From Anaerolineae bacterium (lineage in GTDB: Bacteria > Chloroflexota > Anaerolineae > Aggregatilineales > Phototrophicaceae), in the NCBI GenBank assembly GCA_016788965.1, contig JAEUQZ010000003.1, positions 1 through 32,854 on the forward strand: a stretch of DNA of 32,854 bases. Direction: 5' to 3'. Below, in pieces: positions 2,415-32,496 of this stretch. The position numbers were made by a program, and so were the translations under genes. The stretch's first letter is position 1; every line of letters begins with the position of its first letter. A model generated the notes under the pieces. That model did no database searches. It saw nothing but the letters and a program-made list of their open reading frames with translations, and was not told the origin of the DNA.

Positions 2415-3716
2415 ATGATGATGAGAAAATCGGTATTGCTCTCAGTGGTTGTCCTGCTGCTCCTGAGCGTCGCGCTCCTTCAACCAGTTGCCGCACAGAC
2501 GACGACGCTGCGGGTACTCGTTCACCAGAATCCTCCGATGGTGGCGTTCATGGAGGCGTTTAACCAGCAGTTCCAGGAACAACACCCCGAGATCGTCATT
2601 GATATGTCGGTGGTGAATGCGAATGACCTCAGCACGGTGACGCAGACCCGCCTGAGCGCCAACGACATCGACGTGATCGATATGTTTGGCTTCGCCAATG
2701 GGGTTCAGCCTTACATGAAAAACGTCGATGCGCCCAACTGGCAGCAGTTGGCCGACGCCGGCCTGCTGATGGATTTGACAGACCAGCCCTTTGTTGCCAA
2801 CTACGACGCGGCCACCATTGCTGATGCCGGCACGTACAATGGTAAAGTCTACGCGATCAACCTCGGGCGCGTTTCCTACAGCGGCATTTACTACAACATG
2901 GATCTGTTCACGGCCAATAACGTCACGGTTCCGACGACCTGGAGCGAACTGGTTCTGGCTTGCGAAACTTTCAAAGCCGCTGGAATCCCGTGCATGACGG
3001 CAGGCGGCAAAGATGGTTGGCCCATTTTCGTCGGTGCTTACGGCTTAACCGGTGCTCTGTATCCCGACCAGGCTGCTCTGGTAGAGGGGTTGTGGACCGG
3101 GACGATCACGTGGAACGATGAAAAAGCGCTTGAGATGTGGTCCAAGATGCAGGTTTATACCCGCGACATGATCGAATCAGGCGCGAGTGGGATCGCGGGT
3201 GATGCAGCCCCTGGTCGTTTCGCCTCTGGCGCGGTAGCGATGTTCCCCGGTGGGACGTGGTACGCGCCGGCCATCGAATCGGCTGAACCCGAATTCGAGT
3301 GGGGTTACATCCCCTTCCCCGGCTCGGACAATGCTGAGGACAACCAATACCTGTTCGGTAAATACGACCAGGGTTGGGCTGTTGCCGCCAACACTCCGAA
3401 TGCAGAAGCTGCGCTGCTTTATCTTACGGATTTCTCCGCCCCGGAGAATTACCAGGCGTTTGTCGATGCGGTCGGCTTCATCCCGACGCAAGCCACCGCG
3501 CAGTTGAATACCCGCCTCGGTGAGCAGGTGGCGCCGTATCTCGAAAACTTCCGTGTCGGTTACGAGCAGTATTGGGTTGCGCCGCGCGGCGTCGGTCAGT
3601 ACGCCAACCCCTGGGCGTCGTACTTCCAGCCGTTTGGCACATTTGATGATCCCAAAGCGCTTGCCGATACCGTTCAGGCTGACCTCCAGTCAGGTCTGGA
3701 TGCCGCCGGTAGTTAG
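2415..3716 (+). CDS. ABC transporter sugar-binding protein (family 1)
   Basis: This 433-residue protein has a clear secretion signal (MMMRKSVLLSVVVLLLLSVA, cleavage near PVAAQ at about residue 28) and an extracellular solute-binding fold of the SBP_bac_1/MalE type (TLRVLVHQNPP near the N-terminus; EAALLYLTDF and FVDAVGFIPT late). The start is supported by AAGGAG at 2407-2412; three consecutive ATG codons make the exact Met ambiguous. No lipobox Cys follows the signal, so it would be released or held by the permeases rather than lipid-anchored. It leads an operon with two permeases and beta-1,3-glucan enzymes. The likely ligand is therefore a laminari-oligosaccharide, inferred from context and not from binding-site residues. 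Confidence 0.92.
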   Translation: MMMRKSVLLSVVVLLLLSVALLQPVAAQTTTLRVLVHQNPPMVAFMEAFNQQFQEQHPEIVIDMSVVNANDLSTVTQTRLSANDIDVIDMFGFANGVQPYMKNVDAPNWQQLADAGLLMDLTDQPFVANYDAATIADAGTYNGKVYAINLGRVSYSGIYYNMDLFTANNVTVPTTWSELVLACETFKAAGIPCMTAGGKDGWPIFVGAYGLTGALYPDQAALVEGLWTGTITWNDEKALEMWSKMQVYTRDMIESGASGIAGDAAPGRFASGAVAMFPGGTWYAPAIESAEPEFEWGYIPFPGSDNAEDNQYLFGKYDQGWAVAANTPNAEAALLYLTDFSAPENYQAFVDAVGFIPTQATAQLNTRLGEQVAPYLENFRVGYEQYWVAPRGVGQYANPWASYFQPFGTFDDPKALADTVQADLQSGLDAAGS

Positions 3717-3727
3717 CTCATGATCTT

Positions 3728-3767
3728 GCGTGTGGGCTTCCCTTCAAATCGAGGGAAGTCCACGCGC
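3728..3767 (+). repeat. Strong intercistronic hairpin between binding-protein and permease genes
   Basis: A 16-bp stem with two G-T wobbles (3728-3743 against 3752-3767) closes an 8-base loop. Only TTT follows, so it is a weak terminator at most. Such hairpins after binding-protein genes (malE-malF is the classic case) stabilise the upstream message and reduce read-through, giving much more binding protein than permease. Confidence 0.7.
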
Positions 3768-3794
3768 TTTCAGCCAGAAAGGAGGAGTGACATT

Positions 3795-4721
3795 ATGATG
3801 TATCACTTCGGTCGGGGTCAATCTCGCTGGCTTCCCTACTTATTGCTCTTACCAGGGATTATCGCCTACTTCGTGGTCGCACTAGGCCCCTCGCTGGCGA
3901 CCTCGGTCTACTCTTTTACAGATGCCACTGGCTTGCCGGGAGCGCCCGTAAACTGGGTAGGGCTAGCCAACTACAACGAGTTTCTTTTCCTGGGGCAGGC
4001 TGCCAGAGACAACTTGAATGCGGTCGGGCGGACGCTGGTCTTCTGCTTCTTCGTGACCACAATTCAGTTCGGGTTGGGTCTTGTGGTTGCGCTCGTTCTC
4101 AATCAGAAGTTACGCGGCAGGAACTTCTTCCGCACTCTGTACTTCATGCCCGTGATCCTGGGTGCTGTCATTCAGGGCTTGATCTGGTCTCTCTTCCTGT
4201 ATCCTCTCGGCGGCCCCCTGGCAAAGTTCCTGGAGATTTTTGGCGCTCGCTCCGAATTCCTGGGCGCACAGCCAACCGAAGCGTTCGCATGGGTCATTGT
4301 CGTCCAGATTTGGGCAAACATGGGGACGACCATGATTATCTTCCTGGCTGGTCTCCAGACCATCTCGGAAGAGTATTACGAGGCGGCTCGCATTGATGGC
4401 GCGAACCGCTGGCAGGTCTTCGCCAACGTCACCTGGCCGCTGTTAACCCCGAGCGTGAACACCAATCTGCTGCTGAATGTCATTGGCAGCCTTCAGGCGT
4501 GGCAGCTATTTCTGGTATTGCTCGGCTACCGCAATGGGACACAGGTCTTGGGATACCTGATTTATGCGACTGGCTTTGGACAAACATCCGGCAGTGTGAC
4601 CAGCAGTTTCCGGCAAGGATACGCAGCCGCGGCATCCATCGTCATGTTCGTGATGGTCTTGGTCATCGGCATGGTGGTGCAGACTATTCTGCGGCGCAGA
4701 GAAGCGAGGATAATGGGATGA
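3795..4721 (+). CDS. Sugar ABC transporter permease, MalF/UgpA type
   Basis: This is a 308-residue inner-membrane permease with about six hydrophobic segments and the EAA loop (EEYYEAARIDGANRWQVF, residues about 192-209) that docks the ATPase. The frame is open upstream to 3720, but those 25 residues are not permease-like and fall in the hairpin. The start at ATG 3795 is preceded by AAAGGAGG at the right distance. It overlaps the next permease gene by ATGA (4718-4721), showing translational coupling. No ATPase gene is present in the locus, as is common for this family, where a shared MsmX/UgpC-type ATPase serves several transporters. Confidence 0.93.
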   Translation: MMYHFGRGQSRWLPYLLLLPGIIAYFVVALGPSLATSVYSFTDATGLPGAPVNWVGLANYNEFLFLGQAARDNLNAVGRTLVFCFFVTTIQFGLGLVVALVLNQKLRGRNFFRTLYFMPVILGAVIQGLIWSLFLYPLGGPLAKFLEIFGARSEFLGAQPTEAFAWVIVVQIWANMGTTMIIFLAGLQTISEEYYEAARIDGANRWQVFANVTWPLLTPSVNTNLLLNVIGSLQAWQLFLVLLGYRNGTQVLGYLIYATGFGQTSGSVTSSFRQGYAAAASIVMFVMVLVIGMVVQTILRRREARIMG

Positions 4722-5566
4722 GCGTAACAAGTGGTGCAGCTTCACCCCCCTACAGGCAGATGGAGTGGGGCAAGATTCTGTCTTATGCGTTCCTGTTGCT
4801 GTTGGCGATTGTCTACCTCGGCCCGCTGCTGATGCTCGTCAACACCTCTTTGAAAACGACCCCATCTTTCATGCGAGATGCGACAAGTTTGGCAGCGCAG
4901 CCCAATTTCGGGAACTTCGCCGAGGCGTGGGAAAAAGCCAACTTCCCCAAGTATCTGCTCAATTCGGCGATTTATACGATCTCCGCAACGGCGATCTACG
5001 TCGTGACCGCGGTCTTCGTGGCCTTCCCAATCGCGCGCGGTTACGTCAGATACTCTGGTCTCCTGCTCACGCTGTTCGTGATTGCGCTGTTCTTGCCGCC
5101 CGCCCTGATTCCACAATTCCAGCTTATCCTGCGCCTGGGGTTGTACAATAACCCTGTTGGTTACATCCTGCTTTTCATCGTCAATCCCATTGGCATTATC
5201 ATCCTGGTGAACTACATCAAGACCGTTCCAGTGGAGCTGGATGAGGCGGCTGCTCTGGATGGGTGTGGTTATTTCCGTTTTGTGTGGTCAATCGTCCTGC
5301 CGCTCATTCGCCCCGCCGTTGCGACAGTAGTCGTCCTTCACGCAATCGGCATCTGGAATGAGATCATTCTGCCGACGATCTACCTGACGAACAAAGACTA
5401 TTATCCGATCACGCGTGGTCTGATCGTCTTCCAGGGCGTGTATGGCAGCGACTGGCCTGTCCTGGCCGCCGCTGTGCTGATGCTGACGCTGCCAATGGTC
5501 ATTCTGTTCCTGTTCTTGCAGCGCTACATCGTCTCCGGTTTGACCGCCGGTTCGGTCAAAGGATAA
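4718..5566 (+). CDS. Sugar ABC transporter permease, MalG/UgpE type
   Basis: This is a 282-residue permease beginning MSVTSGAASPPYRQ at ATG 4718, overlapping the stop of the previous permease gene. The longer open frame back to 4499 is out-of-frame overlap with that gene and is not real. It has about six membrane segments; the EAA loop VELDEAAALDGCGYFRFVW lies near residue 172. It should pair with the upstream permease to form the channel for the imported oligosaccharide. It is followed after 54 bases by the GH16 gene, which has its own strong ribosome binding site, so all are probably on one message. Confidence 0.93.
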   Translation: MSVTSGAASPPYRQMEWGKILSYAFLLLLAIVYLGPLLMLVNTSLKTTPSFMRDATSLAAQPNFGNFAEAWEKANFPKYLLNSAIYTISATAIYVVTAVFVAFPIARGYVRYSGLLLTLFVIALFLPPALIPQFQLILRLGLYNNPVGYILLFIVNPIGIIILVNYIKTVPVELDEAAALDGCGYFRFVWSIVLPLIRPAVATVVVLHAIGIWNEIILPTIYLTNKDYYPITRGLIVFQGVYGSDWPVLAAAVLMLTLPMVILFLFLQRYIVSGLTAGSVKG

Positions 5567-5620
5567 CGCTGTAATCGACCACGCCTTACGCCGTCCAAGT
5601 CTACATATGAGGAGACTGTG

Positions 5621-6472
5621 ATGCGAATGTCCTCTAGCCGATGTACTTTGCTGATCGCGCTGGTCCTTATTGGCATGAGCTTGACTGGTCGTGTGATCGC
5701 TCAAGAACAGCCCACCGCCGAGGCAACGCCCGAAGCTGAAGCTACACCGATTGTAGTGCCAGAGGGTTGGGAATTGGTCTGGCATGATGAATTCGATGGC
5801 GACGCGATTGATGAAACCAACTGGACTTATGATCTGGGTGCTGGCGGTTGGGGCAACGGCGAAGCACAACACTATACCAATCGTTCTGAGAATGCACGCC
5901 TGGAAGATGGGATGCTGGTGATCGAGGCGCGGCAGGAAAAATACATGGGGTCCTACTACACCTCGGCACGGCTCACGTCACAGGGCTTGCAGGAATTCCA
6001 GTACGGGCGCATCGAGGCGCGCCTCAAAGTGCCCGCAGGAAAAGGACTGTGGCCGGCGTTCTGGATGTTGGGGTCAAATTTCGCGGAAGTTGGCTGGCCC
6101 GACTGCGGTGAAATCGACATCATGGAATACGTCGGCAGAGAACCTGATCTTATCTTCGGAACAATGCACGGCCCTGGCTACTCCGGGGCGCTGGGGCTGA
6201 GCCACTGGAACCGTCAGGACTATGACATTGCCGATGAGTTCCACACCTATGCCATCGAGTGGGATGAAGACGGGATCACCTGGTTTTACGACGGGGAGGA
6301 ATACGGTTCGTATACCCCCAGCGATGTTGGAGAGCGCGAATGGCCCTTTGACCAACCGTTCTTCATCATCCTCAACCTCGCAATTGGGGGGACGCTGCCG
6401 GGGCCTATCGGGCTGGATACCGTCTTCCCGGCGCAGTATTTGGTGGACTACGTGCGCGTTTTCCAGCAGTAG
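5621..6472 (+). CDS. Secreted GH16 endo-beta-1,3-glucanase (laminarinase-like)
   Basis: The protein is 283 residues from ATG 5621, chosen over the GTG at 5618 because GAGGAG lies at 5609-5614. It carries a signal peptide (residues 1 to about 30, ending RVIAQ), a short PTAEATPEAEATP linker, and one GH16 domain from WELVWHDEFDG to the end. The catalytic motif EIDIME gives nucleophile E164, D166 and acid/base E169; the methionine-containing ExDxME form is typical of laminarinases. WPAFWML and the C-terminal strand VDYVRVFQ are also typical of the family. No carbohydrate-binding module is present. It should cut beta-1,3- or mixed-linkage glucan outside the membrane, making oligosaccharides for the adjacent ABC importer. 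Confidence 0.92.
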   Translation: MRMSSSRCTLLIALVLIGMSLTGRVIAQEQPTAEATPEAEATPIVVPEGWELVWHDEFDGDAIDETNWTYDLGAGGWGNGEAQHYTNRSENARLEDGMLVIEARQEKYMGSYYTSARLTSQGLQEFQYGRIEARLKVPAGKGLWPAFWMLGSNFAEVGWPDCGEIDIMEYVGREPDLIFGTMHGPGYSGALGLSHWNRQDYDIADEFHTYAIEWDEDGITWFYDGEEYGSYTPSDVGEREWPFDQPFFIILNLAIGGTLPGPIGLDTVFPAQYLVDYVRVFQQ

Positions 6473-6488
6473 TGGTTCTTGCCCGAAC

Positions 6489-6523
6489 ATCCCTCGGAGA
6501 TGTAATCTCATGCTCCGAGGGAT
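6489..6523 (+). repeat. Intergenic hairpin between GH16 and phosphorylase genes
   Basis: A perfect 11-bp stem ATCCCTCGGAG (6489-6499) / CTCCGAGGGAT (6513-6523) has a 13-base loop. No T-run follows, so it is more likely an mRNA-stability or processing element than a full terminator. It could lower expression of the phosphorylase relative to the secreted and transport functions. Confidence 0.65.
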
Positions 6524-6553
6524 TATCGACGACCAACCTGCTACAGCGAAAGA

Positions 6554-9500
6554 ATGCAGATGATGAAACGAGACCCGCAATCGATTTTCATTGGCAATAC
6601 ACCCCAGCAGCAGACCGAAAGATCGACTCGCGGTGATTTTGTAACGTTGCTCGGAGAGCCGTTCTATCGGATTCAGAATGTTGACGCCATTGAGCCATTT
6701 TTCGTCAGTGTGGTTAGCAGTTCAGATCACTGGCTCTTCATCTCCTCGACGGGTGGGCTTTCAGCCGGGCGGAGCAGCGTCGAACATGCGCTTTTCCCCT
6801 ATTACACCGTAGACAAACTGACCGAAAACGCTGAACACACAGGCAACAAAGCCATCTTGCTGGTCACGCGCTCTGGCCGCACCAGCCTTTGGGAGCCGTT
6901 CTCAGATCGGCATCAGGGTAGCTATGCCATCGAACGGAATCTGTATAAGAATGTGACCGGAACGGCAGTTGTTTTTGAAGAGATCAACACCGATCTCAGA
7001 TTAGCCTACCAATATGCTTGGCGAACCAGCGAGCGGTTCGGTTTCGTCAAGACGACCTGGTTGAGAAACATGGGGGATTCTGCCTGCCAGGTTGAACTTG
7101 TGGACGGTTTACAGAATATTCTGCCTGCCAATGTGACATCGGGGACACAAAATACACTCAGCAACCTGCTTGACGCTTACAAGCGCAGTGAGCTTCATGT
7201 CGGGACTGGGCTGGCAATGTTCGCGCTCAGTTCGAGGCTGACCGATCTTGCCGAGCCAAGCGAGTCGCTTCTCACTACAACAGTCGTACAGCTCGGTCTA
7301 AAAGATGCATCTTACTTGCTCTCTTCAGCACAGCTTGATCGTTTCCGTTCAGGAGAAGAGATCATTCCGGAGACGGAAGTGCGCGGCAGACGTGGTGCGT
7401 ACTTTGTACACACGAGGCTCGATCTGGCCCCAGAGGAGACACTCACCTGGCATTTGCTGGCAGATGTCCGGCAGGACAGCGCTGCAATTGCCCACAAGCT
7501 GCGCTGGTTGGAAGGTGATCCCCTGACCCTGGCGAAGGAGATAGAGGACGACATTTCAGCCAATCAGTCGAGCCTTTGGAAGATTGTTGCCAGCGCAGAC
7601 GGTGTGCAGCTTTCCAGTTACCCACTCAATGCAGCCCATCATTTTGCCAATGTCATGTTCAACGTGATGCGCGGCGGCATTTTTGCAGATCAATATTGGA
7701 TTCAAGCAGCAGATTTTGTGGACTTTGTGTCTGTTCGTAATCGCGCGGTGCTGCAAGCGAATTCAGATTTCTTCGCCACCTTGCCGGACAGAATCCAGGT
7801 GTCCGATCTACAGTCACGAGCAGAAGCGCACGGCTCTGCTGACCTTATTCGCCTGAGCTATGCCTATCTGCCCTTGACTTTCAGCAGACGGCACGGCGAT
7901 CCCAGCCGCCCCTGGAATCGATTTGCCATAAACGTGAGGAAGCCCGATGGCTCCGTCAACTTGGACTATGAAGGAAACTGGCGCGACATCTTCCAGAACT
8001 GGGAAGCGCTCGCCTATTCGTGTCCAGAATTTGTCGAGAGCATGATCGCGACCTTCCTGAACGCGACAACCGCAGAAGGCTACAATCCCTACCGCATCAC
8101 CTACTATGGTGTCGATTGGGAAGTTCCAGAGCCAGGAAATCCCTGGGCGAACATCGGGTATTGGAGCGATCACCAGATCATCTATCTCCAAAGGCTCATG
8201 GAAATCAGTTCCAGGTTCCACCCTGGCAAACTCCAGGGACTTCTTGCGCGGCTCATGTTTAGTTATGCCAATGTTCCCTATCAGATCAAACCCTACGCTG
8301 ATTTGTTGAAAGACCCCTATAACACGATTAACTTCGACTGGGATCTGGAACGGCAGATCGAATCACAACACAATGAGCGCGGTACAGATGGAAAACTGGT
8401 GCGTTCCCCAAACGGACAGGTTCTCCAGGTCTCATTAGCCGAAAAGCTTCTGACGCTGCTGCTTGCCAAATTGGTCAACTTTGTTCCCGAAGGTGGCATC
8501 TGGATGAATACCCAGCGACCGGAGTGGAACGACGCCAACAATGCGCTTGTCGGCAAGGGATTGTCGGTGGTGACATTGTGCTATATGCGGCGCTATGTCG
8601 TTTTTTGCCGGGAACTGTTCAACAACAGCGGAGTTGCTGCGATTCCCCTCAATGCCGAGGTCCAGAAGCTCTATGCCCGCGTATTCGACATCCTGAATCA
8701 TTTCCAAACGAGCCTGCGAAGCGCTTTCAGCGACGAACACCGGCGGAATATCATGGATGCGCTGGGAGAAGCGGGGAGTGACTATCGTTGGAACTTCTAC
8801 AACAACGGTTTCTCCGGCGAGCTTGTCCATTCACCAGTGAACACAATCGCCGCATTTCTCGATCTGACTTTGGAATACATTGAACATTCCCTGCGCGCCA
8901 ACAAACGCGCCGACAACCTCTACCATTCCTACAACATTCTGCATCTCGACGATGGTTGCGCCTCGATCAGCCACCTTTATGAGATGCTCGAAGGACAGGT
9001 TGCTATCCTCTCATCAGGGCTGTTATCGAGTGCGGAATCGTTGGCGCTGCTGGAAAGCCTTCGGAATAGTGCGCTTTACCAGGCTGAACAGGAGAGTTAC
9101 ATCCTTTACCCAGATCGAAATCTGCCCGGTTTTCTACAGAAGAACTGCCTAACACACGATCAGGTGGCCGATGTAGCGCTCTTTTCGATGCTCATCGAAG
9201 CACAAGATAAATCCCTCATTACCCGCGATGTCAACGGCGTTTATCACTTCAGTGGACACATTCGCAACTTCAACGATGTAAGCCGGGCACTGGATACTCT
9301 AAGAGGACAGCCTCGGTACGCTGAACTCGTAGAAGGTGAGTTCGAGAAGATCAGGGCGTTGTTTGAAGCCACCTTCCACCACAACGAGTTCACCGGACGT
9401 TCGGGAACATTTTTTGCTTACGAGGGACTGGGCAGTGTCTACTGGCACATGGTTGCAAAATTCCTGCTCGCGGCACAAGAGACAGCCAAAAGATTCAGCG

Positions 9501-10027
9501 GCGACTCAAACGCGGATGCATTGATTCAGCGCTACAGGGATATTCGTCAGGGGTTGAGTTTCAACAAGACCCCAGATGCTTATGGGGCATTTCCTACCGA
9601 TCCCTATTCGCACACTCCCAAAGGCCAGGGAGCAAAACAGCCGGGCATGACGGGTTATGTCAAAGAAGTGATCTTATCTCGGCAAGCAGAGTTGGGATTC
9701 TTCGTCGAGAATGGCAAACTGGCGTTTGATACCACCTTGCTGGATCGGCTTGAGTTTCTTACCGACCCCGCCCCATTCTTCTACCTGGATGTCCATGGGC
9801 GTGAACAACACATTGAATTGCAGCCGGGATCGCTCGCATACTCCATTTGCCAGACTCCTGTGGTAGTTCAGTTATCTGACCGGCAGGGTGTTGCGGTACA
9901 TCATGCAGATGGTTCTGTTCACAACATAGATGGACATAGGCTTGATGGCCTCACAAGCAGCAGCATATTCTGCCGCGATGGCCGCGTTGCGCGCGTGATT
10001 GTAGCCGTAATGCTTGATCCAGTGTGA
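6554..10027 (+). CDS. Large GH94/GH149/GH161-type phosphorylase, probable beta-1,3-glucan phosphorylase
   Basis: This is a 1157-residue protein without signal peptide or membrane segments, hence cytoplasmic. Motifs match the disaccharide/oligosaccharide phosphorylase clan that includes GH94: GNWRDIFQNW (474-483, like the RDxxQD sugar-binding motif), IGYWSDHQIIYL (535-546) and PEWNDANNAL (656-665, like the DWNDG motif carrying the catalytic Asp, here D660). Length and the GYNPYRI...DWEVPEP block suggest GH161 or GH149, the families of beta-1,3-glucan phosphorylases, rather than GH94 itself (about 800 residues). It should phosphorolyse beta-1,3-oligoglucosides to glucose-1-phosphate, saving ATP. 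Start codons at 6554, 6560 and 6563 are all possible; the ribosome binding site is weak. The last 54 residues are also found as a remnant at 12,131-12,301. Family placement is by memory of motifs; the clan is secure, the exact family less so. Confidence 0.85.
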   Translation: MQMMKRDPQSIFIGNTPQQQTERSTRGDFVTLLGEPFYRIQNVDAIEPFFVSVVSSSDHWLFISSTGGLSAGRSSVEHALFPYYTVDKLTENAEHTGNKAILLVTRSGRTSLWEPFSDRHQGSYAIERNLYKNVTGTAVVFEEINTDLRLAYQYAWRTSERFGFVKTTWLRNMGDSACQVELVDGLQNILPANVTSGTQNTLSNLLDAYKRSELHVGTGLAMFALSSRLTDLAEPSESLLTTTVVQLGLKDASYLLSSAQLDRFRSGEEIIPETEVRGRRGAYFVHTRLDLAPEETLTWHLLADVRQDSAAIAHKLRWLEGDPLTLAKEIEDDISANQSSLWKIVASADGVQLSSYPLNAAHHFANVMFNVMRGGIFADQYWIQAADFVDFVSVRNRAVLQANSDFFATLPDRIQVSDLQSRAEAHGSADLIRLSYAYLPLTFSRRHGDPSRPWNRFAINVRKPDGSVNLDYEGNWRDIFQNWEALAYSCPEFVESMIATFLNATTAEGYNPYRITYYGVDWEVPEPGNPWANIGYWSDHQIIYLQRLMEISSRFHPGKLQGLLARLMFSYANVPYQIKPYADLLKDPYNTINFDWDLERQIESQHNERGTDGKLVRSPNGQVLQVSLAEKLLTLLLAKLVNFVPEGGIWMNTQRPEWNDANNALVGKGLSVVTLCYMRRYVVFCRELFNNSGVAAIPLNAEVQKLYARVFDILNHFQTSLRSAFSDEHRRNIMDALGEAGSDYRWNFYNNGFSGELVHSPVNTIAAFLDLTLEYIEHSLRANKRADNLYHSYNILHLDDGCASISHLYEMLEGQVAILSSGLLSSAESLALLESLRNSALYQAEQESYILYPDRNLPGFLQKNCLTHDQVADVALFSMLIEAQDKSLITRDVNGVYHFSGHIRNFNDVSRALDTLRGQPRYAELVEGEFEKIRALFEATFHHNEFTGRSGTFFAYEGLGSVYWHMVAKFLLAAQETAKRFSGDSNADALIQRYRDIRQGLSFNKTPDAYGAFPTDPYSHTPKGQGAKQPGMTGYVKEVILSRQAELGFFVENGKLAFDTTLLDRLEFLTDPAPFFYLDVHGREQHIELQPGSLAYSICQTPVVVQLSDRQGVAVHHADGSVHNIDGHRLDGLTSSSIFCRDGRVARVIVAVMLDPV

Positions 10028-10120
10028 TCGCAAGGAAAGACGAACAGCGAAGGTTCTGGCGCTGCCCACGCCGCGCAGTTTTCGCCACGCGGTCGCGCTG
10101 GGCAACCTAACGATGCAGGT

Positions 10121-11065
10121 TTGGTTGAAACGTCCGGGTTAATCCGCCGAGTTGAGACTTTACGAAGGCAGAAGCAAGTGGGAAAAGAACACAGACGGAA
10201 TAAATCATTGGCAGGAGTCGATGTCTCCGCTTACTCCATGGATGAGTTGAAAGCGATTGTTCGCGACATCTTGGCAGAGAAGATTTATGGAATTGCCTTT
10301 AGTCCTTACGTTGAAGGCCAGTCGCCTGGAACGCAAATCTCTGCGTCACAAATAGTCCAACGTCTCAGCATTGTGCAGCCTTATGTCAATTTGGTGCGGA
10401 CATTTTCCTGCACTGACGGGAACGAGCTTATCCCTCAGATCGCTGCCGGACAAGGGCTAAAAACAATGGTAGGCGTGTGGCTGGACGATGATCACGAGCA
10501 TAACGCCATAGAACTCAATAATGCGCTTGAAGTTGCCAGGGCTGGCTACGCTGATGTACTTGCTGTCGGCAACGAGGTGCTGTTACGCAATGAAATGTCT
10601 GAGGCGGAATTAATCGGTTACATCAATCGGGCAAGACAAGGGGCGCCGGGTGTAACCATTGGGTACGTTGATGCTTACTTCAAGTTTGTCGATCACCCAC
10701 AAGTCTGTGATGCCTGCGATGTGATTCTTGCCAATTGCTATCCGTTTTGGGAAGGCATTGCTGCTGAACACTCCCTGATCTACATGAAGGAAATGTACAG
10801 ACTTGCTACCAATGCTGCGAAGGGTAAACCGGTGATTATCAGCGAAACCGGTTGGCCCAACATTGGAACACCGGAACGTCACGCCGTTCCCTCGTTTGCG
10901 AACGCCATCCGCTACTTCATCAACGCATATAAGTGGGCTGAAGAGGAAGATATCGACATCATCTACTTCTCCGCCTTTGATGAAGCCTGGAAGATAGCCA
11001 GTGAGGGGGACGTAGGTGCTTATTGGGGCTTGTGGGACAAGGATGGTGTCCCGAAATATGCCTAG
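10121..11065 (+). CDS. Intracellular GH17 family beta-1,3-glucanase / glucanosyltransferase
   Basis: GH17 TIM-barrel protein of up to 314 residues. The proton donor is E152 in AVGNEVLLR and the nucleophile E242 in ISETGWP, both classical for GH17. There is no signal peptide, so it acts in the cytoplasm beside the phosphorylase. The frame opens with TTG at 10121; a GTG at 10178 (giving MGKEHRRNKS) is an alternative, and the first 30 residues are not part of the fold. Known GH17 enzymes hydrolyse or transfer beta-1,3-glucan; here it may trim or rearrange imported oligosaccharides for phosphorolysis. It overlaps the next gene by 8 bases. Confidence 0.87.
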   Translation: MVETSGLIRRVETLRRQKQVGKEHRRNKSLAGVDVSAYSMDELKAIVRDILAEKIYGIAFSPYVEGQSPGTQISASQIVQRLSIVQPYVNLVRTFSCTDGNELIPQIAAGQGLKTMVGVWLDDDHEHNAIELNNALEVARAGYADVLAVGNEVLLRNEMSEAELIGYINRARQGAPGVTIGYVDAYFKFVDHPQVCDACDVILANCYPFWEGIAAEHSLIYMKEMYRLATNAAKGKPVIISETGWPNIGTPERHAVPSFANAIRYFINAYKWAEEEDIDIIYFSAFDEAWKIASEGDVGAYWGLWDKDGVPKYA

Positions 11066-17324: not shown

Positions 17325-19364
17325 TTACGCTGGCGCTAACTCGGCTGGCTGCTTTTCATCCAGGTTGAGCAGAAGCAGCCCTTCGATCTGCGACAGGATT
17401 TGCTCGTTGCTGAAGACAGTGCCGCTGATAGCGCCTGCCGGACAAGCGGCTACGCATGTGCCACATCCCTGACACAACGCTGGGTTGATCTCCGATACCA
17501 TCCGGTCTTCATGGAAAAGAATGGCATGATACGGACACAGGTTGTTGCAGATACGGCAGCCGGAACATTTGCTTTCTTCGATGGATGCCCGTACTGGCTC
17601 CAGCGCGATTTCTTTCTGCTGGATGCGGGACAATACCCGCGCTGCTGCTGCTGCGCCTTGAGCGACACTGGCTGGGATATCCTTCGGGCCTTGGGCACAT
17701 CCGGCAGAGAAGACACCTTCTGTCATCGTGGCAACAGGATCAAGTTTGGGATGTTTTTCAATGATCCAGCCGTCAGAACTGCACGAAATACCGAAGCGTT
17801 TTGCCACCTCTTTAGCATCATGGCGGGGTTGCAGCGATATGGACAGGATCACCATGTCTACTGGGATACGGCGCTGTCGGCCAGCCAATGTATCTTCCAC
17901 CTGGATAATGAGCTTGCCCTCTTCGCCTTCCAGTCGGGCAGCATCGGTCACTTCCGCCGCGCGCCCCCGCACGAAGATCGTGCCTTCTTCCAGCACCCGC
18001 TGGTAGAACTCGTCATAGGCTTTGGCGGTGGTGCGGATGTCGATGTAGAAGTTGTACACCGTCGCGCCGGTACGTTCTTTGACCACGTGGGCGAACTTGA
18101 GGCTTTGCATACAGCAGATGGCCGAGCAGTAATTATTGAAGTTTCGATCTCGGCTGCCAGCACAATGAATAATGCCGACTGTCTTGGGTGTAGTCACACC
18201 ATCGCGCAGAACGATCTTGCCGTTGGTCGGGCCGGCAGCGTTGCTCAAGCGTTCAAACTCCAGGCTGGTGAAGACGTTCGCCAACCGCCCGTAGCCATAC
18301 TGAGCGATGCGCCGCCCATCCATGATGTCAAAGCCCGTCGCCAGGATGATATTGCCCACTTGCAGTGTCAGCAGTTCATCCTGCTGCTCGAAGTCGATGG
18401 CATTGGTCGGACAGAATTTCTCGCAGGCGCGGCAGGTTCCCTTTTGAAAGAAGGTGCAGTTCGGGCGGTCAATGACGGGGTACTTGGGAACCGCTTGCGG
18501 GAAAGGCGTGTAGATGGCTTTGTGATAACCTAACCCCGCCTCGAATACCTCGTCCAGAACCTTCTTGGGGCATTTCTCCTGGCAGATGCCGCAGCCGGTA
18601 CACAGATCAGTCTTGATGTAACGGGCTTTCTTCTTCACCGTCACGGTAAAGTTGCCCACATAGCCCTCTACATTCGTCACTTCGCTCCAGGTCAGCAGTG
18701 TGATGTTGGGATGCGTACCGACCGACACCATTTTCGGCGTCAGGATGCAGGCGGCACAGTCCAGAGTCGGAAACGTCTTGTCAAACTGTGCCATATGCCC
18801 ACCGATGGAGGGTTCCCGCTCGACCAGGTAGACCTGGAAACCGGCGTCGGCAATCTCGAGCGCGGCTTGAATGCCAGCAATCCCTCCGCCAACCACCAGC
18901 GTGGCCGGATGGATGGGGACATGCAGAGCTTCCAGTGGCTCATGATGCAGCACACGCTCAACGCCGCCAGAGATAATTGCCTTCGCTTTCTCTGTAGCTG
19001 CCTCTTTCGCCTCGTGTACCCATGAAGCCTGTTCACGGATTGACACCAGTTCGCACAGGTACGGATTCAGTCCGGCGCGCTGGCAAGCAGTACGAAAAGT
19101 CTGTTCGTGCAAATGTGGCGAACAGGCGGCCACAACCACCCGCGTCAGTCCAAGCTCTTTGATGTCTTTCTCAATGAGTTCCTGCCCCAGACTGGAACAC
19201 ATGAACTTGTAATCGCGCGCGATCACGACGCCGCGCCGGTTAAGTCGTTCTGCTGCCCACTTCGCCACCTGTTCTACGTCGATGACACCGGCAATATTGG
19301 TGCCGCAGTGGCAGACATACACGCCAATGCGTTCCTGTTCCGAACGACCATTTCCTGGAGTCAT
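17325..19364 (-). CDS. hdrA: HdrA-like FAD/iron-sulfur electron-bifurcating subunit
   Basis: This 679-residue HdrA has an N-terminal domain (YVCHCGTNIAG; FMCSSLGQ; AACSPHLHEQTFR), a thioredoxin-reductase-like FAD fold with VVGGGIAGIQAALEIA near residue 157, and four ferredoxin-type or Cys motifs: CTGCGICQEKCP, CRACEKFCP, CSGCRICNNLCP and CQGCGTCVAACP. Its FAD is the known site of electron bifurcation in methanogen HdrA, coupling H2 oxidation to ferredoxin and disulfide reduction. Start ATG 19364 overlaps the hdrB stop by ATGA. Length and domain order match standalone HdrA without fusion to MvhD. Confidence 0.95.
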   Translation of the reverse strand: MTPGNGRSEQERIGVYVCHCGTNIAGVIDVEQVAKWAAERLNRRGVVIARDYKFMCSSLGQELIEKDIKELGLTRVVVAACSPHLHEQTFRTACQRAGLNPYLCELVSIREQASWVHEAKEAATEKAKAIISGGVERVLHHEPLEALHVPIHPATLVVGGGIAGIQAALEIADAGFQVYLVEREPSIGGHMAQFDKTFPTLDCAACILTPKMVSVGTHPNITLLTWSEVTNVEGYVGNFTVTVKKKARYIKTDLCTGCGICQEKCPKKVLDEVFEAGLGYHKAIYTPFPQAVPKYPVIDRPNCTFFQKGTCRACEKFCPTNAIDFEQQDELLTLQVGNIILATGFDIMDGRRIAQYGYGRLANVFTSLEFERLSNAAGPTNGKIVLRDGVTTPKTVGIIHCAGSRDRNFNNYCSAICCMQSLKFAHVVKERTGATVYNFYIDIRTTAKAYDEFYQRVLEEGTIFVRGRAAEVTDAARLEGEEGKLIIQVEDTLAGRQRRIPVDMVILSISLQPRHDAKEVAKRFGISCSSDGWIIEKHPKLDPVATMTEGVFSAGCAQGPKDIPASVAQGAAAAARVLSRIQQKEIALEPVRASIEESKCSGCRICNNLCPYHAILFHEDRMVSEINPALCQGCGTCVAACPAGAISGTVFSNEQILSQIEGLLLLNLDEKQPAELAPA

Positions 19365-27282: not shown

Positions 27283-27663
27283 ATGGAACGGAAAGCGTTT
27301 CTCATGATTCGACCGACACGCGCTTTCACCCCGCCGACGGATGTCATCGAACTGGCCGACCGGATCGTCGTGCTGGTCGAGATCGCCGGGGTGCGTAATC
27401 AGGACGTGAGCATTACTCTATTGGATCGGCATCTGGTCATCAGCGGGACGCGGGAAAAACCGCAGCACCCCAACCCGGCTTTTCATCAGGTCGAGATCGG
27501 CTACGGGGAATTCCGCATCGCGCTGGATATCCCCTGGATCATCGAGCGGGATGCTGTCAGCGCGAGCTACGATGCCGGTTTCCTGCAAGTTGAACTGCCG
27601 CGCAAAGCGGCCCGCACCGTCCCGGTGGTCGATGTGAATGCTGTCGAAGAAGGCGATAACTGA
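27283..27663 (+). CDS. Hsp20/alpha-crystallin family small heat-shock protein
   Basis: This 126-residue protein has an alpha-crystallin domain from about 20 to 115: [43 protein letters not shown], and the closing strand [10 protein letters not shown]. These are standard features of Hsp20 holdases, which keep unfolding proteins soluble. ATG 27304 ([11 protein letters not shown]) is an alternative start with GGAAAG before it. It ends 2 bases before the lon start, so chaperone and protease are co-expressed. Confidence 0.9.
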
Positions 27664-27665
27664 GC

Positions 27666-30212
<2,547 letters not shown>

Positions 30213-30288: not shown

Positions 30289-30651
30289 GTGCCCAAAGTC
30301 ATGATCGTAGATGATGATCGCAACACGGTGAAGCTCCTGCAAACGCTGCTGGAACTGGACGGCTTTGAAGTGCTGATCGCCCCGCGCGGCGCGGATGTGA
30401 TCCCGACCGCCGAACAGAATCCGCCGGACATCTTCCTGATGGATTATCACCTGGCCGATATGGACGGCGTGGACATCATCCGCCTGCTGCGCGCCCACGT
30501 CATCTTTGCGAAGTCGCCCATCATCATGACCTCTGGATTGGATGTTTCCGACGAAGCCATGGAAGCGGGCGCGAACAAATTTCTAATCAAACCCTTCGAG
30601 CCGGGCGATCTGCCGGCGCTGTTCGGCAGCCTGCTCGAAGCCAAAGACTGA
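30289..30651 (+). CDS. Single-domain response regulator (receiver only)
   Basis: This is a 120-residue CheY-like receiver: acidic pair D8-D9 (MIVDDD), phospho-acceptor D52 ([11 protein letters not shown]), T81 (IMTSG) and K101 (LIKPF). There is no output domain, so it must act by binding a partner or in a phosphorelay. It starts with GTG at 30289. No kinase gene adjoins it; the PHP-AlbA_2 gene follows 69 bases later. Confidence 0.92.
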
Positions 30652-30720: not shown

Positions 30721-32496
30721 GTGAGAAACGTGTCCTCCCGTAAAAAATCGCGGCTGCAGTGGTTCCGAATGGACCTGCATCTGCACACCCCTGCCTCTTC
30801 CGACTATCAGGAACCCCACCTGTCCTATCTCGACATCTTGAGGAAAGCCGAACTGCGCGGCGTAGACATCATCGCCTTCACCGACCACAACACGGTCGGC
30901 GGCTATGCGGCCATGCTGCGCGATGTCGAACGGTTGACCTACCTGCAAGGCCTGGGCCGCGCCCAGCCAGATGAAGTCAAGCGGTTGAGCGAATATCGCC
31001 GCCTGCTGGACAAAATCCTGGTGCTGCCCGGCTTCGAGTTCACTGCCACCTTCGGCTTCCATGTGCTGGGCATCTTTTCGCCCCAGACGCCCATCCGTCA
31101 CCTTGAACACATTCTGCTGAGCCTGAACGTGCCCGCGCATGTCCTCGACGAGGGCAGCAGCGAAGTCGGCGCGTCCTCGGATGTGCTGACGGCCTACCAG
31201 ATGATCGACGAAGCCGGTGGAATCTGCATCGCCGCCCATGCCAACAGCAGCCACGGCGTCGCCATGAAGGGCTTCGATTTCGGCGGGCAGACGCGCATTG
31301 CCTATACCCAGGATCGCCACCTCCATGCGCTGGAAGTGACCGACCTGGGCCGCCGCAGCCGCGATACCACCGAACGTTTCTTCAATGGGACGAAATCCGG
31401 CTATACCCGCCGGATGCGCTGCATCCAGGGATCGGACGCGCACCGCCTGAACAGCATCACCGATAAGAGCGGCAAGCACGTCCAGTACGGCGTGGGCGAC
31501 CGCGTGACCGAGGTGCTGCTTGCGGAGCGCAGCTTCGAGGCGCTGCGCGAGATGTTCCTGGGCACGGATTATTCGCGGACGCGCCCCTACAGCGCCAGCC
31601 TTCAGCCCGTTGATTACATCCAGACGGCACGGGAAGAAGGCGCGACGCTGGTGCAGGCTTTCCACGAAAGCATGACCCGTCACGGCGGGCGGCTGTACGC
31701 TATCATCGCCGATGTCTGCGCCTTCGCCAACACCAACGGCGGCACGATCTACGTCGGGGTCGGCACTGATCCGAAGAAAGCGCCTGTCGGGTTGACCAAT
31801 CCGCAGGAAGGCATCGGCCAGCTTCAGCACGAAATCAGCCGGGCGATCACCCCGAAGCTGGATGTCGAGATCGATGTTCAGGAAACGCAGGGCAAAGCGA
31901 TCATCCGCCTGCAAGTGCCTTCCGGCGATGAACGGCCCTATGCTATCGAAGACAACAAAATCTACGTGCGCGACGAGGCCGAGACCAGCCTGGCCGTCCG
32001 CGACGAGATCGTCAGTCTGGTACAGCAGGGTCTCCACATTCAGCAGCGGGCGGTCGAACCCGCACCTGCGCCTGTGCCGATCCCGCCCGCGCGTCCCGCT
32101 CAAACGCCCGCGCCGCGCCTGGAACCCGCCCGCCCACATAGCGTAGCCGCGCCGACCGGCGGCGTCGAGATCATCGACACCGAAGACCGCGATGGCGAAC
32201 GCTACTTCACCATGCGTGACCTGCGGAACGGCAACATCGTCAAGAACGTCACCCGTTCGTCCGCCCGGCGGCTGTGGCACTATGCCATCAAGCAGGCCGA
32301 GGGCAACGCTGTCCGCCCGGATCGCGTCCAGTGGAACGCGGACATCGGCCTGTGGCAGAAGTACCAGAAGAACGGTGAAACCCGTTACGATCTGGTGCAG
32401 CGGGCAGACGGCAAGGTACGGGTGTACTACGGCGTGACCGAAGCCGGAATGCAGGGCGAGTGGCAGCAGTTCCTCTCGCCGGATGACGGCGAGTAG
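30721..32496 (+). CDS. PHP phosphoesterase - AlbA_2 (Schlafen-like) fusion with unknown C-terminal domain
   Basis: This 591-residue protein starts at GTG 30721, directly after an in-frame stop. The N-terminal PHP domain has metal ligands in DLHLHTPASSD (H20, H22), FTDHN (D55, H56), GFEFT (E106), AAHAN (H173) and GSDAHR (D239, H241). An AlbA_2/Schlafen-like domain spans about 305-435 (FHESMTRHGGRLYAIIADVC, FANTNGGTIYVGV, YVRDEAET). A proline-rich linker (about 446-478) leads to a 110-residue C-terminal domain (RYFTMRDLRNGNIVKNVTR, YGVTEAGMQGEWQQF) that I do not recognise. PHP proteins hydrolyse phosphoesters and AlbA_2 domains bind nucleic acid, so a nucleic-acid-directed phosphoesterase is plausible but inferred. 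Confidence 0.88.
   Translation: MRNVSSRKKSRLQWFRMDLHLHTPASSDYQEPHLSYLDILRKAELRGVDIIAFTDHNTVGGYAAMLRDVERLTYLQGLGRAQPDEVKRLSEYRRLLDKILVLPGFEFTATFGFHVLGIFSPQTPIRHLEHILLSLNVPAHVLDEGSSEVGASSDVLTAYQMIDEAGGICIAAHANSSHGVAMKGFDFGGQTRIAYTQDRHLHALEVTDLGRRSRDTTERFFNGTKSGYTRRMRCIQGSDAHRLNSITDKSGKHVQYGVGDRVTEVLLAERSFEALREMFLGTDYSRTRPYSASLQPVDYIQTAREEGATLVQAFHESMTRHGGRLYAIIADVCAFANTNGGTIYVGVGTDPKKAPVGLTNPQEGIGQLQHEISRAITPKLDVEIDVQETQGKAIIRLQVPSGDERPYAIEDNKIYVRDEAETSLAVRDEIVSLVQQGLHIQQRAVEPAPAPVPIPPARPAQTPAPRLEPARPHSVAAPTGGVEIIDTEDRDGERYFTMRDLRNGNIVKNVTRSSARRLWHYAIKQAEGNAVRPDRVQWNADIGLWQKYQKNGETRYDLVQRADGKVRVYYGVTEAGMQGEWQQFLSPDDGE

Follow-up and report, generated by a model that had tools for sequence, protein, structure and literature searches.

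The window (the whole stretch of 32,854 nucleotides analysed here) encodes on its plus strand, at 30721..32496, a protein of 591 aa that combines a PHP phosphoesterase domain, a Schlafen-type AlbA_2 domain and an unnamed C-terminal domain (hereafter CTD). The open reading frame has a GTG start, and a second GTG at position 30730 (reading MSSRKKSR) better fits the starts of several relatives in the alignment, so that translation may in fact begin 9 bases further on. The PHP domain covers residues ~13-290 (30757..31590), as delimited by NCBIfam matches, metal ligands and fold, and the AlbA_2 domain was detected by Pfam at residues 324-422 (31690..31986), with a fold match. A variable, proline-rich linker, recognizable from the alignment and from low pLDDT values, occupies residues ~441-477 (32041..32151) and leads to the CTD at residues ~478-587 (32152..32481), which is defined by alignment and structural model and has the order βββ-α/ββββ-α. 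In the full-length AlphaFold2 model (pLDDT 78.4, pTM 0.59), the linker region (residues 435-473) has a pLDDT below 50. Upstream on the same strand lie the genes, both named from sequence, of an Hsp20-type small heat-shock protein (27283..27663) and of a Lon-type protease (27666..30212), the latter a conserved upstream neighbour, followed by a stand-alone response-regulator receiver (REC) of 120 aa (30289..30651; Pfam Response_reg, E 3.8e-21).

Elsewhere, the window contains a sugar-uptake and glucan cluster (2415-11065) that includes a solute-binding protein (SBP_bac_8) and a GH16 protein (5618-6472), then a protein of 1157 aa that has no Pfam match (6554-10027), and a protein (10121-11065) related to GH17, a family unusual in bacteria. 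On the minus strand, positions 17325-19364 encode a 679-aa protein with several 4Fe-4S ferredoxin-type segments and a FAD/NAD-binding oxidoreductase domain.

Nine residues of the PHP domain that we take, by homology, to be its metal ligands (H20, H22, D55, H56, E106, H114, H173, D239 and H241) are invariant in all 28 aligned homologues, i.e., the window protein and 27 of the 29 loci recovered by the contig search (the contig-truncated L046 and L052, which is close to L038, were omitted). An earlier reading of this DNA made from the sequence alone (the sequence-only reading) had likewise found all PHP ligands in place. The set is complete in 102 of the 110 distinct family proteins of a wider set; the other eight comprise a fragment (L071), a protein with a degraded PHP domain (L074) and six N-terminally cut sequences that lack H20 and H22 because they begin later, where a locus or contig ends. 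With 17.8 bits, the Pfam PHP family PF02811 stays under its cut-off of 26.4 bits. Matches of NCBIfam PHP families cover residues 13-280, with E-values down to 1.2e-24 but scores that are all below the curated cut-offs: TrlF (NF045780; E 1.2e-24, 87.1 bits against 350, residues 13-280, the PHP part only), Ppl (NF042955; E 1.6e-23, 82.6 bits against 1000, residues 13-246 only), Spaf_1101 (E 2.2e-17) and CehA/McbA (E 9.4e-11). For RNase AM / RNM (NF047791), the cut-off of 375 bits is far from the 22.6 bits obtained. The Ppl model of PADLOC (PDLC02208) also matches (E 3e-17), and a PDB sequence search linked the PHP part to the RNase AM structure 9etk (E 6e-5).

The model of residues 13-292, in which residues 178-191 have a pLDDT below 50, has the PHP barrel fold, as judged from its matches to EndoQ, 2anu and RNase AM. 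With VIA-align, the two best matches are structures of EndoQ (5zb8, Z 19.4, rmsd 3.1, 224 residues aligned; 7k30, Z 19.2; both with 224-230 residues aligned at rmsd 3.1-3.4), some 2 Z units above the next ones (3e38, 17.2; 2anu, 17.0; 7rty, 16.8) and followed by RNase AM (9etk, 16.3; 7ug9, 15.7) and 2yb1 (14.1). This lead depends on the aligner, since Foldseek places TM0559 (2anu) first and does not return EndoQ among its best 50 matches. The structural neighbours are thus a mixture of DNA enzymes (EndoQ, Pol III), small-molecule phosphatases and RNase AM. Together, the invariant ligands and the predicted fold point to a multinuclear metal site in the PHP domain.

The AlbA_2 domain, which the sequence-only reading had placed behind the PHP domain, was confirmed by a Pfam match well above the cut-off (PF04326, E 5.6e-18, 66 bits vs 25.3). 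In the model, the fold extends over residues ~283-419 and resembles 2kyy (Z 12.1), SLFN14 (Z 10.5) and Schlafen folds in general (Z 8.4-10.5). Schlafen nucleases carry a catalytic Glu-x4-Glu ... Asp triad, with the two glutamates five residues apart, and the PDB titles among the Schlafen structure matches name E211A and E209A variants. In the family studied here, the E-x4-E motif occurs in the aligned AlbA_2 region of only three of the 110 sequences, the first strand being aligned by sequence only. The second glutamate corresponds to Gln312 by ungapped count from the SLFN12 alignment, a position occupied by glutamine in 94 of 110 sequences, and at D350, the equivalent of the aspartate, 41 of 110 have Asp. 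Since the Schlafen glutamate pair is not conserved, a non-catalytic role is favoured, in which the domain probably binds but does not cut the substrate. In prokaryotic Argonaute proteins, AlbA_2 is taken as a DNA-binding domain (PMC6299218).

The C-terminal 119 aa have no match in Pfam, NCBIfam, PADLOC or PHROGs. The sequence-only reading had described a proline-rich linker followed by an unnamed domain of about 110 residues starting at residue 483, close to the boundary at ~478 found here, and its suspicion that this is no known common module is borne out by these searches and by chance-level results against PDB sequences (four matches of the CTD profile, E 0.45-0.79). The window CTD has no Pfam match, and the 28 aligned CTDs give scattered weak ones, the best being to PadR in three members (E 0.0011), which we consider as chance because the other 25 do not match. 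Modelled alone with AlphaFold2, the CTD has a predicted fold (pLDDT 91.4, pTM 0.83) in which three strands are followed by a helix, a short strand, three long strands and a second helix. Comparisons of this structure prediction, which the sequence-only reading had proposed as a check, with the PDB (Foldseek, VIA) and with viral models (BFVD, best E 0.012) retrieved nothing convincing. The best among the weak matches are SsgA/SsgB proteins (SsgA-like 3cm1, Foldseek E 0.021; VIA Z 3.5, rmsd 5.0 over 66 residues) and tandem dsRNA-binding domains (dsRBDs; 7zpk, 5n8l and 5dv7, Foldseek E 0.02-0.06). These are the best matches to solved structures in a comparison that also had Whirly/PUR-like and dsRBD-like folds in view, and we assign the CTD to neither. 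An internal duplication of the two CTD halves was considered and is unsupported by profile comparison (P 0.79), so that the two lobes resemble each other in topology alone. The charge of the domain is about balanced (17 K+R vs 18 D+E over 114 residues); the computed pI is 9.1 for the CTD, 6.6 for the PHP domain and 4.9 for the AlbA_2 part.

The PHP-AlbA_2-CTD architecture is real and conserved, and it has no name of its own. The gene is present in 39 of 41 genomes, i.e., that of the window and 40 relatives; it is missing from G021 and G022 and cut at a contig end in G007. Its recurrence in 38 of the 40 other relatives means that the fusion, which the sequence-only reading had already described, is not a misassembly. 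A profile search of genome contigs, which reaches close relatives only, yielded 29 loci, all in records labelled Chloroflexi, Chloroflexota, Anaerolineae or Anaerolineales with the exception of L035 (JAPUDW010000134.1), titled Bacteroidetes. The gene of this record matches a genome of the window's genus (G009:C134), and the record is probably a mislabelled MAG. Within the class, 192 of the 298 genomes sampled have a match to the CTD profile (127 of the 189 of good quality), mostly a single one, and the gene is single-copy in most genomes. As many members of the class lack it, it is not needed throughout the class. Among genomes drawn from the phylum, the CTD was detected in 28 of 201, and with a wider profile in 63 of 400, these samples overlapping; in this 400-genome sample, none of the 12 genomes listed for family f9 has a CTD. 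Judged by title or opening of the abstract, none of the papers listed from the literature covered, mainly open-access articles, deals with this fusion.

The CTD is modular. We examined 88 CTD loci and found 85 CTD ORFs in 83 of them; 75 of these ORFs also encode PHP and AlbA_2 domains. Among the ten ORFs without the full set, seven are pieces that are frameshifted or cut at the edge of a contig or locus (L071, L092, L094, L097, L101, L107 and L113); L093 and L113 are two views of one short CTD fragment, and only L103 has a truly different architecture. The L093/L113 fragment (G290:C37) is a 93-aa ORF with a partial second CTD; it lies on the downstream side of a complete gene and is probably a duplicate that has decayed. 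In other Chloroflexota, homologues of ~740-880 aa have a second full CTD, most of them with an extra copy of the second half of the domain, and both short and long types are present in four genomes of family f92 (G257, G287, G314 and G354). L103 (352-1881, genome G253) encodes a 510-aa NYN protein (NYN E 4.7e-32) with a C-terminal CTD (100 bits); the ~200 aa in the middle of this protein have no Pfam match. Among the matches listed for the 199 class genomes searched, a full-length match to this NYN-CTD protein occurs in G253 only, and no PHP-AlbA_2 gene was found in this genome. The idea that the NYN-CTD gene took over the site of the PHP gene was rejected, as its neighbourhood in G253 differs from the PHP locus of the relatives.

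The gene order hsp20-lon-REC-PHP is conserved. Counted over 30 loci (the window and 29 others, some with flanks too short to tell), a homologous REC gene of the same orientation is the immediate upstream neighbour in 19 and sits 1.0-2.1 kb away on the upstream side in three (L034, L035 and L042); lon precedes the PHP gene on the same strand in 21, and hsp20 is found upstream in 16. In four loci, lon is directly upstream without REC (L048, L053, L055 and L059), whereas the flank of four others (L037, L039, L040 and L041) contains REC but no lon. The sequence-only reading had proposed that the receiver may regulate the enzyme and that conservation of the pairing be checked: the two genes adjoin in 19 of 30 loci, but the pairing is not universal. 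The phospho-acceptor Asp is present, by eye, in all 22 aligned receivers. PHP distances correlate with those of REC (Spearman 0.91, n=22) and of Lon (0.78, n=22), with none of 500 permutations as high, which we interpret as shared descent and not interaction because kinship makes such correlations easy. A near-complete genome from another class (G198) has lon directly upstream of the PHP gene. Five homologues from other Chloroflexota classes (L166-L170) have neither lon nor hsp20 nearby, which is evidence against a universal link with lon; two of them are followed on the 3' side by a REC gene, the one scanned being of the REC-LuxR type. The position of the PHP gene by hsp20, lon and a receiver gene suggests expression or regulation together with protein-quality-control or stress genes. 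On the other side of the PHP gene, a convergent minus-strand family of ~190-246 aa is found 3' in 11 of 30 loci (among them L033, L038, L040, L041, L044, L048 and L060), mostly within 100 bases, and the two members scanned have no Pfam match.

The sequence-only reading had also envisaged a role in defence, and an anti-phage effector akin to Ppl and TrlF, in which the Schlafen domain and the CTD would act as sensor instead of an ATPase, has in its favour the PADLOC and NCBIfam matches of the PHP part to these systems, as well as the presence of TrlF genes on enterobacterial plasmids. This distant homology of the PHP part is the only link to defence, and the mobility of the gene is not what such a role would lead one to expect. 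Among 72,556 plasmid records, 452 match but none covers 80% of the query; the matches listed extend at most over residues 13-350 and are mostly TrlF-like proteins, and the CTD alone matches none. The 50,697 phage records include no match over 80% of the query and a single one restricted to AlbA_2, and scans of IMG/VR with the full alignment and the CTD alignment gave no match. The mostly single-copy gene, the lack of a full-length copy in these collections and the conserved hsp20-lon-REC-PHP order therefore favour a vertically inherited cellular role over mobile defence. As the divergence of the gene also tracks that of lon and REC, as the protein has no ATPase and as its neighbours are hsp20, lon and REC, we consider a defence effector very unlikely and the protein probably a housekeeping or stress-related enzyme rather than the product of a phage-defence gene.

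Its anatomy provides good support for the protein as a metal-dependent phosphoesterase that has two modules probably binding nucleic acid, and fold and domain company agree with the sequence-only reading in pointing to nucleic-acid processing. Its function is a reasoned guess. We tentatively favour, while holding it somewhat short of probable, a Chloroflexota nucleic-acid-processing PHP enzyme whose substrate would most likely be RNA, with AlbA_2 and CTD as binding modules. The PHP metal site would hydrolyse phosphoester bonds of the nucleic acid, perhaps at the 5' end as in RNase AM, a 5'-3' exoribonuclease whose activity depends on metal-site residues (PMC9410882). AlbA_2 would hold the substrate without cutting, the CTD could be a detachable module for recognition of substrate or partner, as suggested by its duplication in some homologues and its presence on a NYN protein in one genome, and REC may gate the activity of the enzyme. 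RNA is preferred to DNA because of the kinship with RNase AM, the kinship with Schlafen proteins and the NYN fusion, each of them weak alone; the occurrence of NYN-CTD in one genome of 199, outside the PHP locus of the relatives, counts against the favoured explanation. So do the balanced charge of the CTD, the DNA enzymes and small-molecule phosphatases among the structural neighbours, the separate RNase AM-like protein of many relatives and the lack of the gene in many class members; the high computed pI of the CTD speaks for it.

The likeness to EndoQ, which provides the top two structural matches, and the DNA-binding annotation of AlbA_2 in Argonaute proteins (PMC6299218) pull toward DNA instead, and would suit a DNA-repair nuclease, i.e., an EndoQ-like or end-processing PHP enzyme acting on damaged DNA bound by AlbA_2 and CTD. 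However, the PHP sequence is nearest to TrlF/Ppl and RNase AM-type PHPs and not to EndoQ, Foldseek prefers TM0559, the EndoQ zinc-finger motif CPxCG (PMC4357722) occurs in none of the 110 family sequences and the identified neighbours include no DNA-repair gene, which makes this alternative rather unlikely. The protein could also be a phosphatase of small molecules or nucleotides (cyclic nucleotides or nucleoside bisphosphates, for example) in which AlbA_2 and CTD would serve for regulation or as a scaffold, a role for which the structural match to 2yb1 and weak NCBIfam matches to nucleoside-bisphosphate and cyclic-phosphate phosphatases (NF041577, NF041661) could be cited. We regard it as quite unlikely, as the curated cut-offs are far from reached (22.6 of 400 bits, 15.6 of 500) and as AlbA_2 and the NYN link indicate nucleic acid.

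A bolder and decidedly improbable version of the RNA-processing hypothesis would make the protein a Chloroflexota-specific enzyme tied to a stand-alone receiver as well as to the stress locus of hsp20 and lon. Its CTD, a two-lobed, previously undescribed fold that binds nucleic acid and is exchangeable onto a NYN ribonuclease, would feed substrates to the PHP nuclease, forming a phosphorylation-gated branch of RNA decay without counterpart in model bacteria. If the preferred reading of a nucleic-acid-processing enzyme were true, a phylum poorly served by genetics would gain a conserved nucleic-acid enzyme with a new binding module, and a connection of a two-component receiver and the Lon/Hsp20 locus with the turnover of RNA or DNA could be put to the test. 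The CTD would then merit a family model of its own, being unnamed in the copies of Pfam, NCBIfam, PADLOC and PHROGs searched, yet present in nearly two-thirds of the class genomes.

Compared with known systems, the nearest PHP domain by sequence is that of TrlF / Ppl, which combine PHP with an AAA/SMC-like ATPase; a plasmid TrlF is 26% identical to the window protein over residues 13-305. In contrast to these systems, the window protein contains no ATPase family detectable by Pfam, and its family is chromosomal and, within the tests made, inherited vertically. RNase AM / RNM (YciV), the PHP 5'-3' exoribonuclease, shares the PHP fold and ligand pattern with the window protein, which has AlbA_2 and CTD in addition. 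The idea that the latter replaces a missing RNase AM was rejected, as 26 of 41 relatives also have a distinct PHP protein of the RNase AM-like kind (E <1e-50). EndoQ gives the best VIA-align match of the PHP part, with no match reported at the sequence level, and its C-terminal domains are unlike those of the window protein. Schlafen and other AlbA_2 proteins (SLFN11-14, prokaryotic AlbA_2) have the AlbA_2 domain and fold in common with the window protein, whereas the latter has a single AlbA_2 lobe, located behind a PHP domain, in which the glutamate pair is not conserved. Finally, the NYN ribonuclease-like protein of G253 (L103) ends in the same CTD, with NYN instead of PHP as the catalytic domain.
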